From positions 1-57,914 of the forward strand of contig JAKLKA010000031.1 of the NCBI GenBank assembly GCA_023150915.1: a stretch of 57,914 nucleotides of DNA, read 5' to 3'. Position 1 is the stretch's first letter. Every line of letters starts with the position of its first letter. A program made the position numbers and the translations under genes. Below the pieces are notes generated by a model, which was given only the letters and a program-made list of their open reading frames with translations, was not told where the DNA came from and made no database searches. This stretch comes from Polyangiaceae bacterium. Its GTDB lineage: Bacteria > Myxococcota_A > Polyangia > Polyangiales > Polyangiaceae. Of the stretch, positions 21,066 through 27,997 are shown in pieces.

Positions 21066-22898
<1,833 letters not shown>

Positions 22899-22907
22899 CG
22901 CGCGGTC

Positions 22908-24536
22908 TCAGTTGAACTCGTGTTCCTTGGCGAGCAGGCCTGCCCCGCCGGCGCCCGCGCCCGTGCTTTGACCGGCGCCGTCGGCTCCGCCCGGGGCTGC
23001 GCTGCTTGCGATCTGGATGCTGCCCCCGGTGACCGTGGGCTTGTCGCCCTTGAACGCCAGGCCAATGCTGGGCCCGCCCGCGCCGCCGCCCCCCTGTCCG
23101 CCGTTGCCGCCCTTCGCGCCGGCACCGCCCGCGCACGCGCCGGTGCCCCCGGCCGCGCCCGGCGCGCCGTTGCCGCCGGGTTGCCCCTTGCCGCCGTTGC
23201 CGCCCTTGCCGCCAGCTTTCGCAAACAGATCGCAGTCGGTGATCGTCACGCCCGACTGGTGCACGGTGATGGCGATGCTCGCGCCGCCGCCCTTGCCACC
23301 TTCGCCGCCGATTCCCCCGCAGCCGCCGCTGCCGCCGCCGCCGCCGGAAGCGCCGATCGGCGGGTTCGGTCCCGTCGGGCCGCAGCTCGACGGCGCCTTC
23401 AACGAGCCGCCCCCGCCGCCGCCCTGCCCGTTGCCGCCGTTCTGTCCATAGCCGCCCGAGCTCGAGCTCCACCCGCCGGACGAGAGCATGCCCGCGCTGG
23501 TGCTGCCTTCGCCGTCGTCACCGTTCGCGCCCGCTGCGCCATTCGCGCCCTTGCCGACCGTCGCGCAGCTCCAGCCGCCGGGGAGGGCGTCGTTCTGGCC
23601 GAGGCCACCCAGGCCGCCCGCCATGCTCGGCGCGCCGTCGGTGCCCGAGCCCGCGCTGCCGACACCGACGCCCGCCACGCCGCCGAAGCCGCCCTTGCTC
23701 TCGGGGAAGCCGCAGCCAGTCACGGTCTCGGCGCCGCCCAGGGCGTCTTTGCTGCATGCGTTCTTCCCGGGGTTGCCGCTCTTGCCCGCATCGGCCACGC
23801 CCGGCGTGCTGTACCCCGCCACGCCGTTCGCGCCGGTTCCAGCAGTCACCTTCAACCGTGCCAGTCGCACGTTCTTCGACCCGCCCACCACCACGCCGAT
23901 GCTGGCGGTCCCCGGCGAGGTGGCAGCGCCTGCGGTGATCTCGAAGTCCTCGATGCGCGTTCCCGTGATCAGATCCGCCAGCTCGATCACGCCGCTCGAC
24001 GGGCCGGTCAGCAGGGTGCGGGTGCCCTTCGCGTAGTCCCAGGTCGCGCAGTCGAAGCCACCATACAGCTCGACGCCGTCCGAGTTCGAGTCGATGGTGA
24101 TCTGCGTGTCGAACGCGCCGGCGGTGGCACAGGCATACACGCGCTTGTCGTCCAGCGCCGCCGTGCTGATGGCTTGATCGAAGGTCTTGTAGGGCTTCGC
24201 TCGCGAGCCGTCGCCGTACAGGTCATCGCCCTTGGGTGACACGAACACCGCGAAGCTCTCGTGGATCACGCAGGCGTCTTCGAACGGCGTCTTCTTGCCG
24301 TCGCACCCCGGCCCGCCGCCGCCGAAATTGCTGAGCCCGCCGGTGCCCGAGCCGTTGCCGCTGCCGCCGTTGCCCGTGCTGCCCGTGCCGCTCTGGCCGC
24401 CCGTGCCGCCGCCGCTGCTGCCCCCCACGCCGGGGTTGTTCGGCGAGTACTCGCCATCGCGTTTGCTGCCACACGCGAGCATCACCACGCTGCCGGTCAG
24501 CAAGACCCCGAGCGCGACCCGAGCTTCGAAGCGCAT
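22908..24536 (-). CDS. Gly-rich PGRS-like lipoprotein with beta-helix segment
   Basis: A 542-residue lipoprotein (lipobox MLAC, Cys22). A Gly/Ser linker (35-75) precedes a segment resembling parallel beta-helix proteins (FVSPKGDDLYGDGSRAKPYK, then FDQAISTAA and VELYGGFD), the type of N-terminal repeat seen in DUF1565 proteins. The rest, from about residue 230, is dominated by GGNGG and GAAGANG repeats, much like mycobacterial PE-PGRS proteins. It is likely a surface protein; the role is unknown. The ATG is six bases from a palindromic AGTATACT that also serves the divergent gene. The convergent glmS stop is nine bases away. Confidence 0.75.
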   Translation of the reverse strand: MRFEARVALGVLLTGSVVMLACGSKRDGEYSPNNPGVGGSSGGGTGGQSGTGSTGNGGSGNGSGTGGLSNFGGGGPGCDGKKTPFEDACVIHESFAVFVSPKGDDLYGDGSRAKPYKTFDQAISTAALDDKRVYACATAGAFDTQITIDSNSDGVELYGGFDCATWDYAKGTRTLLTGPSSGVIELADLITGTRIEDFEITAGAATSPGTASIGVVVGGSKNVRLARLKVTAGTGANGVAGYSTPGVADAGKSGNPGKNACSKDALGGAETVTGCGFPESKGGFGGVAGVGVGSAGSGTDGAPSMAGGLGGLGQNDALPGGWSCATVGKGANGAAGANGDDGEGSTSAGMLSSGGWSSSSGGYGQNGGNGQGGGGGGSLKAPSSCGPTGPNPPIGASGGGGGSGGCGGIGGEGGKGGGASIAITVHQSGVTITDCDLFAKAGGKGGNGGKGQPGGNGAPGAAGGTGACAGGAGAKGGNGGQGGGGAGGPSIGLAFKGDKPTVTGGSIQIASSAAPGGADGAGQSTGAGAGGAGLLAKEHEFN

Positions 24537-24542
24537 GGGGCG

Positions 24543-24550
24543 AGTATACT
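24543..24550. promoter_or_regulatory. Palindromic shared -10 element (AGTATACT) for two divergent leaderless genes
   Basis: AGTATACT is its own reverse complement, so each strand reads TATACT. The plus hexamer ends at 24550, with six bases to GTG 24557. The minus hexamer ends at 24543, with six bases to ATG 24536. The spacing is exactly mirror-symmetric and places both predicted transcription starts at or beside the start codons. Confidence 0.6.
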
Positions 24551-24556
24551 GCCCCG

Positions 24557-25315
24557 GTGCAGCTGTCGCTCGTGGTGTTGCTCGGCGTGGTGGCGCTGGC
24601 GCTGTTTGCCGGCGTGCTGCTGGTGAGCCAGGTCGCCGGTGCTGCGCTGCGGCGGTCGCTCGGCATGGTGCGCCACTCGCTCCGTCCGGGTCGGCCCATC
24701 GGCGAGCTCACCTCGGGCCCGCGGCGCATGCAGGGCTTCGTGGGTCTCGCCGCCTCGCAGAGCGAGCGCGAGGCGTTGCTCACCGGTCCGGTGAGCGGGC
24801 GGCCGTGCCTGGCCTACGAGCTCGAGCTCTCGGCGGATGGCCGGCGTTGCTATTCCGAGCGGCAGGCGCTGCCGTGCGTGGTGCGCGACGGCTCGGGCGA
24901 GCTCGAGCTTCCGATGTCGACGGCCGAGCTCTCGATCGAGCGACGCGAGGCGTGGCGCGGCGTCCTCGAGTCCGCCCCACCTCCGGGTCTCTCGCCAGCG
25001 CTGTGCCAGAAGCTGGTCGCGGCCAAGAACGCCTTCATCGAGCGCGAACGCCTGTCCCCGGCGGTGCCCGTGGAGCTCGCAGTCAAGACGATCGGCACCG
25101 GGGACTTGCTCTACGTGAGCGGCGAGGTGATCCAAGGGGGGCCCCGCGTCAGCCTGATCTCGGGTCGGCCGGTGTGCGTGTCGGACCGACCTTTCGCCGA
25201 GGTCGCCAAGAAGGAAGGCCTGTTCGCCGTTGCTGGCGTGGCCTTCGCGCTGTTCATCGTCAGCGTGGTGGTCGCGGTAGCGACTTCGATCGTCGCTCGC
25301 ACGCGAGCACCTTGA
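24557..25315 (+). CDS. GIDE-type membrane protein without RING finger
   Basis: A 252-residue protein with an N-terminal helix (LVVLLGVVALALFAGVLLV), a cytosolic or periplasmic middle part, and a C-terminal helix (LFAVAGVAFALFIVSVVVAV). The middle shows the GIDE-like pattern: LAASQSEREALLTGPVSGRPC and a following YELEL strand, as found in eukaryotic mitochondrial E3 ligases of the MUL1/MAPL type. The RING finger of those proteins is absent. Bacterial GIDE proteins have been linked to membrane-stress or conflict systems, but no partner is seen here. The GTG start is fixed by the shared TATACT element. Confidence 0.65.
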   Translation: MQLSLVVLLGVVALALFAGVLLVSQVAGAALRRSLGMVRHSLRPGRPIGELTSGPRRMQGFVGLAASQSEREALLTGPVSGRPCLAYELELSADGRRCYSERQALPCVVRDGSGELELPMSTAELSIERREAWRGVLESAPPPGLSPALCQKLVAAKNAFIERERLSPAVPVELAVKTIGTGDLLYVSGEVIQGGPRVSLISGRPVCVSDRPFAEVAKKEGLFAVAGVAFALFIVSVVVAVATSIVARTRAP

Positions 25316-26152: not shown

Positions 26153-27997
26153 ATGGCTCGAGTCGGGTTTCGCCTGCTTGCAGGCGCTTGTCTCTCTTGC
26201 GTGACGTCGTTCGCGCTCGTCACCAGTTGCTCGGCCGACGGCGGCAGCGGGGCGCCGGGTGGCGGGGGCACGGGCGCTGCGGGGGGCGGTGACGCCAGCC
26301 TGGGGGGCAGCGGGGGCGGCGGCGGCAGCGGGGCTATCGGGGGCAGCGCCGGCGATGGCGGCATCCTGATCGATTCGCCCACCGGCGACGGCTGCGCAGC
26401 CAAGTGCTCCAGCGATTTCCACAAGGTCCTGAGCTGCTCGGGCGCGGTCGTCGCCACTTGCAGCGGCGAGAGCGGTTGCGACCCGACCACCGGCAAGTGC
26501 GAGAACGCCTGCAGCGTCGCCGACAAGACCAAGCAGAGCGTGGGCTGCGAGTACTACCCCACGTTCATGGAGATGAGCGAGTCCAGCTTCTGGAAGAGCA
26601 ACCAGATCTGCTTCGCGGTGATCGTGGCCAACACCTGGGACACCCCGGCCAAGGTCAGCGTCGAGCTCAGCGGCGCGGCGATCGACATCGACAAGTACGC
26701 GTACGTGCCCCAGGGCTCGGGGCCCAGCCTCAAGCTTCAACCCACCAGCGTGACCCAGGGCATCGCGCCCGGCGGCGTGGCGATCCTGTTCTTGGCTGGG
26801 CTTCAGGGCACCGAGAAGGCGCACTGCCCGGTGCCCTCTGCCATGGTCGCCGGGCCGATGGTCGCCGGCACGGGCAAGGGCCACTCGTTCCACCTGAAGA
26901 CCAACGTTCCCGTCGTGGCCTATCAGGTTGCGCCCTATGGCGGCGGCAACGCGGCGGTCACCGGCTCGTCATTGCTCATCCCGACCAGCGCCTGGGACGT
27001 GAACTACATCGCGGTCAACGCCTACAAGTACGGCATCGCGCCGCCGACCATGAACGTGATTGCGCTCGAGAACGGTACCGACGTGACTCTAGTCCCCGTG
27101 GCCGCGGTCACCGGCGGCGGCGGGCTGCCCAGCGGCCCGGCCAACGCCCCGCTGACCTTCAGCCTGAACGCCGGCGAGATGGCGCAGTTTTCCCAGAATG
27201 CCGAGCTCACCGGTAGCGTGATCTCGTCGAACAAGCCGGTCGGGCTGATGGGCGGGCAGAAGGCGCTCAACGTTCCGGTCGGCGTCTCGTATGCCGACCA
27301 CGCCGAGCAGATGATCCCGCCGGTGCGCGCCATGGGCAGCGAGTACGTGGGCGTGATGCACCGCCCGCGCAAGACCGAGCCGGCGGTGTGGCGCCTGGTG
27401 GGCGCGGTGGACGGCACCGCGCTCAGCTGGACCGGCGGGGTGACTGGGCCGGCAACGCTCAATCGGGGTGAGGTCGCCGAGATTCAGACCGGCACTCCGT
27501 TCGTGGTGAAGAGTCAGGACGACAAGCACCCGTTCATGCTCTTCCAGCTGATGACGGGTTCGACGTTCTTGCCCGCCATGAACGGCTACGGCGACGCGGA
27601 CTTCGTGCTGATGGTGCCGCCCCAGCAATACATGCCGCGCTACGTGTTCTTCGCCGACCCGACCTACCCCGAGACCAACCTGGTCTTGGTGCGCGCCAAG
27701 GTGAACGGCGCCTTCGCCGACGTGAACCTGGACTGCGCTGGCAAGGTCTCGGGTTGGCAGCCCATCGGCGACTACGAGTGGACGCGAGTGGATCTGATGA
27801 CTGGGAACTTCCAGCCCGTCGGCAACTGCTCCACGGGTCGCCACGAGATTTCGAGCGACGGCCCGTTCGGCGTCACGGTGTGGGGCTGGGGCACGCCCGA
27901 GACCACCACCTTCACCAGCAACGTCTCGTACGGCTACCCCGCCGGAATGAACATCGTGCCGATCAACAAGGTCGTCGTTCCGCCGGTGCCGAAGTAG
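26153..27997 (+). CDS. IgGFc-binding-type surface lipoprotein
   Basis: A 614-residue lipoprotein (LVTSC lipobox, Cys26) with a Gly-rich linker (30-70), a small Cys-rich module (CAAKCSSDFHKVLSCSG; residues about 80-125), and a large C-terminal domain that resembles the IgGFc-binding N-terminal domain family. Typical motifs are VGCEYYPTFMEMSE, FAVIVANTWDTPAKVSVELS, SSNKPVGLMGGQ and TFLPAMNGYGDADFVLMVPP. In bacteria these proteins are surface lipoproteins of unknown partner; IgG binding is inherited from the mammalian name and not implied. The start ATG fits a lipoprotein signal and a TACCAT element five bases upstream. Confidence 0.8.
   Translation: MARVGFRLLAGACLSCVTSFALVTSCSADGGSGAPGGGGTGAAGGGDASLGGSGGGGGSGAIGGSAGDGGILIDSPTGDGCAAKCSSDFHKVLSCSGAVVATCSGESGCDPTTGKCENACSVADKTKQSVGCEYYPTFMEMSESSFWKSNQICFAVIVANTWDTPAKVSVELSGAAIDIDKYAYVPQGSGPSLKLQPTSVTQGIAPGGVAILFLAGLQGTEKAHCPVPSAMVAGPMVAGTGKGHSFHLKTNVPVVAYQVAPYGGGNAAVTGSSLLIPTSAWDVNYIAVNAYKYGIAPPTMNVIALENGTDVTLVPVAAVTGGGGLPSGPANAPLTFSLNAGEMAQFSQNAELTGSVISSNKPVGLMGGQKALNVPVGVSYADHAEQMIPPVRAMGSEYVGVMHRPRKTEPAVWRLVGAVDGTALSWTGGVTGPATLNRGEVAEIQTGTPFVVKSQDDKHPFMLFQLMTGSTFLPAMNGYGDADFVLMVPPQQYMPRYVFFADPTYPETNLVLVRAKVNGAFADVNLDCAGKVSGWQPIGDYEWTRVDLMTGNFQPVGNCSTGRHEISSDGPFGVTVWGWGTPETTTFTSNVSYGYPAGMNIVPINKVVVPPVPK

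Follow-up and report, generated by a model that had tools for sequence, protein, structure and literature searches.

The window analyzed here, a 57,914-nucleotide stretch of DNA from a Polyangiaceae bacterium (GenBank assembly GCA_023150915.1, contig JAKLKA010000031.1), contains two divergent genes whose initiation codons are separated by 20 bases. The gene on the forward strand (positions 24557–25315) was called as encoding a 252-aa protein with a hydrophobic stretch at both ends, membrane-like by eye. The gene on the reverse strand (22908–24536) was called as encoding a 542-aa glycine-rich protein; its lipoprotein-type signal, MRFEARVALGVLLTGSVVMLAC, was likewise recognized by eye. By the same visual inspection, a lipoprotein-type signal lies at the N-terminal start of the latter protein in all three genomes of the genus (G000, G001 and G002), with similar signals in G001 and G002. 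The entire intergenic gap (24537–24556), which has the same length in the three genomes, reads GGGGCG-AGTATACT-GCCCCG and is bordered by CAT (ATG on the reverse strand) at 24534–24536 and by GTG at 24557–24559. Its central AGTATACT (24543–24550) is a palindrome in which both strands read TATACT, at 24545–24550 on the forward strand, six bases ahead of GTG 24557, and at 24543–24548 on the reverse strand, six bases ahead of ATG 24536. The two hexamers reciprocally overlap over TATA, and this overlap is kept in all three genomes. The initial annotation had described this gap, its palindrome and the six-base distance to both starts, and the description proved exact. Neither strand of the gap contains the ribosome-binding-like words GGAG, GAGG or AGGA in G000 and G001; in G002, a single GGAG is present on the reverse strand, 15 bases ahead of the ATG, which is far for a ribosome-binding site. 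Over the 200 bp upstream of each start, no further TANNNT was found in G000, G001 or G002.

Both genes were called with exactly these starts (22908–24536 on the reverse strand and 24557–25315 on the forward strand) by a self-trained gene finder, a 3-periodic Markov model trained on the sister genome and using no promoter information. A gene finder based on codon usage only had missed the forward gene and placed a wrong-strand gene over part of it, and was replaced. For both genes, the start is the first possible one after the upstream stop, and GTG 24557 and ATG 24536 are retained in all three genomes. The nearest alternative starts of the forward gene (codons 6, 7 and 8) are not retained in all three genomes; those at codons 20 and 23 are retained, but the alignment indicates that they would cut into the first hydrophobic stretch. 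We also computed RNA folding for the initial 60 bases of each predicted message, and found no more structure than in shuffled sequences (z values of –0.21 and 0.73).

The forward protein of the window matched no Pfam family at E ≤ 10, and the sole Pfam match among the three orthologues of the genus was to an unrelated DUF at E 2, a range in which HMMER filters drop most matches (above approximately 0.1). An AlphaFold2 model of this protein had a mean pLDDT of 44.7 and was too poor for use. Without a Pfam GIDE match or a usable model, the GIDE-type label that the initial annotation had given to the forward gene was not upheld, although a remote relation may remain. The labels given to the two proteins are thus weaker than the description of the gap; for the lipoprotein, no Pfam family was found at E ≤ 1. 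In the surroundings, the lipoprotein gene ends 10 bases from the end of a glmS-like gene, which has SIS and glutamine amidotransferase domains (window positions 22898–22908); in the sister genome, approximately 1.6 kb separates the two ends. A 598-aa protein (26201–27997), encoded two genes downstream of the forward gene, has a strong Pfam IgGFc_binding match (E 1.7e-91). Compared with the left part of the window, most genes between 31143 and 54201 have their sister-genome matches in the opposite order and orientation, which corresponds to an inversion of approximately 28 kb.

We examined how the gap is conserved. Its 20-base length, AGTATACT and both start codons are unchanged in the three genomes of the genus, in which the orthologues of the forward protein have 87% and 75% identity to that of the window. 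None of the 8 core columns is variable, compared with 7 of the 12 columns that flank the core within the gap (one-sided Fisher test, P = 0.010, a mere guide because the three sequences are related). Orthologues were available from this one genus, three in all: a search of 59 genomes with the forward protein matched five, of which three were the genus itself and the other two matched over part of the protein (E 3.5e-4 with 34% identity, and E 4.4e-4 with 31%). The outer GGGGC/GCCCC arms had been considered as a longer inverted repeat and were rejected, since the arms vary in the genus. In the window, AGTATACT occurs once, against a mean of 0.01 in 100 shuffles. This count, together with the identity in three of three genomes despite the variation in the flanking columns, argues that the site is not due to chance. 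A lack of conservation of AGTATACT among relatives was one of the two results that the initial annotation had named as refuting its reading, and the element was retained in all three genomes.

The hexamer and its palindromic form are both infrequent. TATACT is rare in this lineage of approximately 70% G+C; 400 kb of the sister genome contain two per strand, and one of each belongs to the AGTATACT element. The palindrome itself is present at two places across the 8.0-Mb own genome and, counting exact matches only, at seven sites in the genus (2, 3 and 2 per genome), compared with three for a reversed-pattern control. Three of the seven sites are the present locus. Among the other four, three precede an open frame, at distances of 7 bases (73 aa), 9 bases (467 aa) and 6 bases (292 aa); the remaining one has no start codon within 3–13 bases on either strand. 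The other copy in the own genome (L001:1501–1518) is followed after 7 bases by the GTG of a ribbon-helix-helix, antitoxin-like gene of 73 aa (Pfam matches below the cut-off), and by eye another open frame starts immediately behind this gene.

We counted TANNNT motifs ahead of called starts in the lineage. The sister genome was examined over 1.2 Mb with 982 called starts, and TANNNT ended 6, 7, 8, 9 and 10 bases before the start 33, 32, 20, 22 and 14 times, respectively, compared with 0 to 7 times at every spacing between 16 and 59. The corresponding counts for the 332 starts in 455 kb of the own genome, including the window, were 10, 6, 7, 9 and 4. When 518 first genes of divergent pairs were considered, 85 had TANNNT at 6–10 bases, compared with 7 to 14 in six control bins; a ribosome-binding-like word was found in 97 of the same genes, and both the word and TANNNT in 5. 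When 138 sites (spacing 6–9) were aligned on the hexamer, G was enriched at –14 and –16 and C at –8, and a weak TTG was present at the –35 distance, for which the spacer is 17 bp. The G at –14/–16 before TANNNT forms an extended –10 pattern of leaderless-type sites in the genus (L008–L067, from contig 3 of the sister genome G001, as well as stretches of the own genome). TANNNT approximately 10–12 bp before the start is described as a leaderless signature in other bacteria in the cited part of Zheng et al. 2011 (PMC3160421), and TANNNT promoters with many leaderless mRNAs are described for Mycobacterium tuberculosis in that of PMC3898074. These counts suggest that leaderless promoters are in wide use in the lineage. 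At the present locus, TANNNT ends within the range of approximately 6–10 bases on both sides, at spacing 6.

We then compared this element with a promoter matrix built from 134 leaderless-type sites of the lineage, from which the four sites of the locus itself had been left out. The forward and reverse –10 regions fell at the 31st and 25th percentiles of these sites, and each score was reached by 3 of 20 000 random positions in the sister genome. The –35 regions fell at the 19th (forward) and 31st (reverse) percentiles, so that there is no good –35 in either direction. The G at –14, carried by 63% of the lineage sites, is ruled out here by the palindrome. With these –10 and –35 percentiles, the element looks like a genuine but not strong promoter each way.

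Taken together, it is probable that the gap constitutes a single compact bidirectional promoter, in which one sigma-70-type –10 element is common to two leaderless transcripts. In the proposed mechanism, AGTATACT would supply a sigma-70-type –10, TATACT, to each strand, with the overlap over TATA. RNA polymerase could bind in either orientation and would initiate seven bases past the last T of TATACT; the predicted +1 positions are therefore the G of GTG at 24557 on the forward strand and the A of ATG at 24536 on the reverse strand, 21 bp apart. Because initiation would take place on the first base of each initiation codon, both mRNAs would be leaderless. The initial annotation had proposed such a shared –10 with leaderless starts on both sides, and the proposal is supported by the TANNNT peak at 6–10 bases, the conservation in three of three genomes and the lack of any other TANNNT within 200 bp.

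We further analyzed the possibility that the same geometry is found elsewhere. Among 259 divergent pairs in 1.65 Mb, 9 had TANNNT at 6–10 bases on both sides, near the expectation of 7.0. Seven of the nine had separate –10 elements in gaps of 47–142 bases, and the other two were the present locus in two species. The pattern CAY-N6-AGTATACT-N6-RTG was found in 5 of 183 genomes of the order (reversed control, 1), and CAY-N6-ANTATANT-N6-RTG in 15 of 183, at 13 distinct loci (reversed control, 4). A spacing control with N13 was found in 1 of 183 genomes (reversed, 2). An N10 control was found in 6 of 108 genomes of the family (reversed, 3), compared with 12 family genomes and 10 loci for N6, and the enrichment at N6 is therefore only moderate. 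Open frames of at least 90 aa lay on both sides of 6 of the 13 N6 loci, compared with none of 7 control loci; because 7 of the 13 lack such frames, some of the mirror matches are due to chance. Both sides scored as coding at the present locus, in G036 (330 and 315 aa, no Pfam family) and in G104 (137 and 99 aa). In G111, both frames flanking the mirror element stay open over 500 aa or more and have weak Pfam matches that fall below the cut-off; a model trained on another genus gave them coding scores of 2.3 and –46.2. In the genus of G111, one other genome was examined, and the forward protein was absent there. One flanking side scored as non-coding at the loci L098 and L100. The gene pairs of G111 and G036 (L088:1501–1526 and L097:1501–1526), which are unrelated, have equal mirror geometry and long frames on both sides. 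A search of the three genus genomes for CAY-N5-TANNNTA-N5-RTG, which corresponds to an 18-bp-type shared –10 with leaderless starts, yielded one match, with frames of 15 and 102 aa (reversed control, 1). The mirror geometry thus recurs in the order, though rarely, at a small number of unrelated gene pairs. A stronger form of the hypothesis holds that the gap is an either/or switch, whose two orientations exclude each other and thereby set the ratio of two envelope proteins without a regulator, and that this device is recurrent in the order; we consider this form improbable.

One alternative is that a single direction is a real promoter and the mirror hexamer arises as a side effect of the nearly palindromic TATA core. 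In its favor, the symmetry of –10 elements often yields divergent, even non-coding, transcripts (cited part of PMC10268837), and one direction may dominate. However, in all three genomes the second start has the exact six-base spacing too, and the 200 bp upstream offer no other TANNNT; the two genes are long and are retained in the genus; and the outer AG would not need to stay unchanged if TATACT served one side only. We therefore regard a one-sided promoter as improbable.

It is also conceivable that the palindrome serves mainly as the operator of a dimeric regulator and that the promoters lie inside the neighboring coding sequence. The perfect 8-bp palindrome would suit a dimer, and in G001 the symmetry widens to GCCAGTATACTGGC; beyond 8 bp, however, it is lost in G000 and G002. 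The other copy in the own genome precedes the gene of the ribbon-helix-helix, antitoxin-like class (Pfam below the cut-off), a class that often autoregulates. Against an operator, the 2, 3 and 2 exact sites per genome form no regulon-like set, no alternative TANNNT is present within 200 bp upstream of either start, and the conserved core coincides exactly with two overlapping –10 hexamers at the leaderless spacing of the lineage, which makes this explanation very unlikely. Finally, a chance AT-rich short palindrome in a short gap could be argued from the 7 of 13 distinct N6 loci without long frames on both sides; it is hardly credible in view of the 0.01 copies expected in the window, the conservation in the genus, and the spacing and reversed-pattern controls.

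If the start sites of the proposed bidirectional promoter are confirmed, the gap would be close to the shortest region able to express two divergent genes, with 20 bases, no 5΄ UTRs and no good –35. It would combine leaderless translation with a shared –10 element, both of them known phenomena, and would offer a natural test of the choice of orientation by RNA polymerase at a perfectly symmetrical –10. A genome-wide map of start sites by Cappable-seq has been published for the related Myxococcus xanthus (PMC8844925; data deposited as E-MTAB-11042), in the main text of which the word "leaderless" is absent. This map could contain such cases and could allow the leaderless signature to be checked in a relative.

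Bidirectional promoters have been described by Warman, Grainger and colleagues, with start sites 7–25 bp apart and most often 18 bp (PMC10268837); spacings of 10 and 23 bp are likewise common (PMC12825309). According to the cited passages of the latter, polymerases cannot bind in both orientations simultaneously, and at five bidirectional promoters of E. coli there was little competition at basal activity, competition appearing once one direction was activated. The coupling of the two genes by polymerase competition, as suggested by the initial annotation, is accordingly possible at the present locus, should one direction become strong. The gap resembles these promoters in that the –10 elements of opposite strands overlap between divergent protein genes and that the predicted distance of 21 bp falls within 7–25 bp. 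In contrast to the usual cases, the predicted spacing is 21 bp rather than 18, 10 or 23 bp, and the overlap is over TATA. The commonest form, with 18 bp, reciprocally paired positions –7 and –11 and T at –18, differs from the gap in its spacing and in the G found here at –18 on both strands; in the cited passages (PMC10268837, PMC12825309), the 18-bp form with T at –18 is the commonest and no requirement. Moreover, unlike the promoters described in these passages, both transcripts are predicted to be leaderless, and the gap consists entirely of the two –10 elements and their six-base spacers.

The locus shares with leaderless genes (PMC3160421, PMC3898074) a TANNNT at leaderless distance and, in the window, a gap lacking a ribosome-binding motif, whereas the signal is described for single genes in the cited parts of these reports and one element would serve two here. 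In M. tuberculosis, PrpD (Rv1130) and Rv1129c are divergent neighbors of which both mRNAs are leaderless, as predicted here; the cited passages of PMC3898074 do not state a common –10. In the EcoRV restriction-modification system, divergent core promoters overlap and polymerase cannot occupy both at once, but a C regulator is involved and the C transcript is reported as not leaderless (cited part of PMC5333194). No doubly leaderless shared –10 was found in the titles and abstract openings among the matches listed for leaderless with bidirectional, divergent or shared promoters and for the myxobacterial and deltaproteobacterial literature. The locus had been put forward as an unusually compact divergent promoter. 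The compact form, predicted to be doubly leaderless, is indeed unusual, and the locus is less singular than claimed because promoters with a shared –10 have already been described. Two-way promoters are thus known, and the doubly leaderless, fully compressed form predicted for this gap is an unusual, conserved variant of them.
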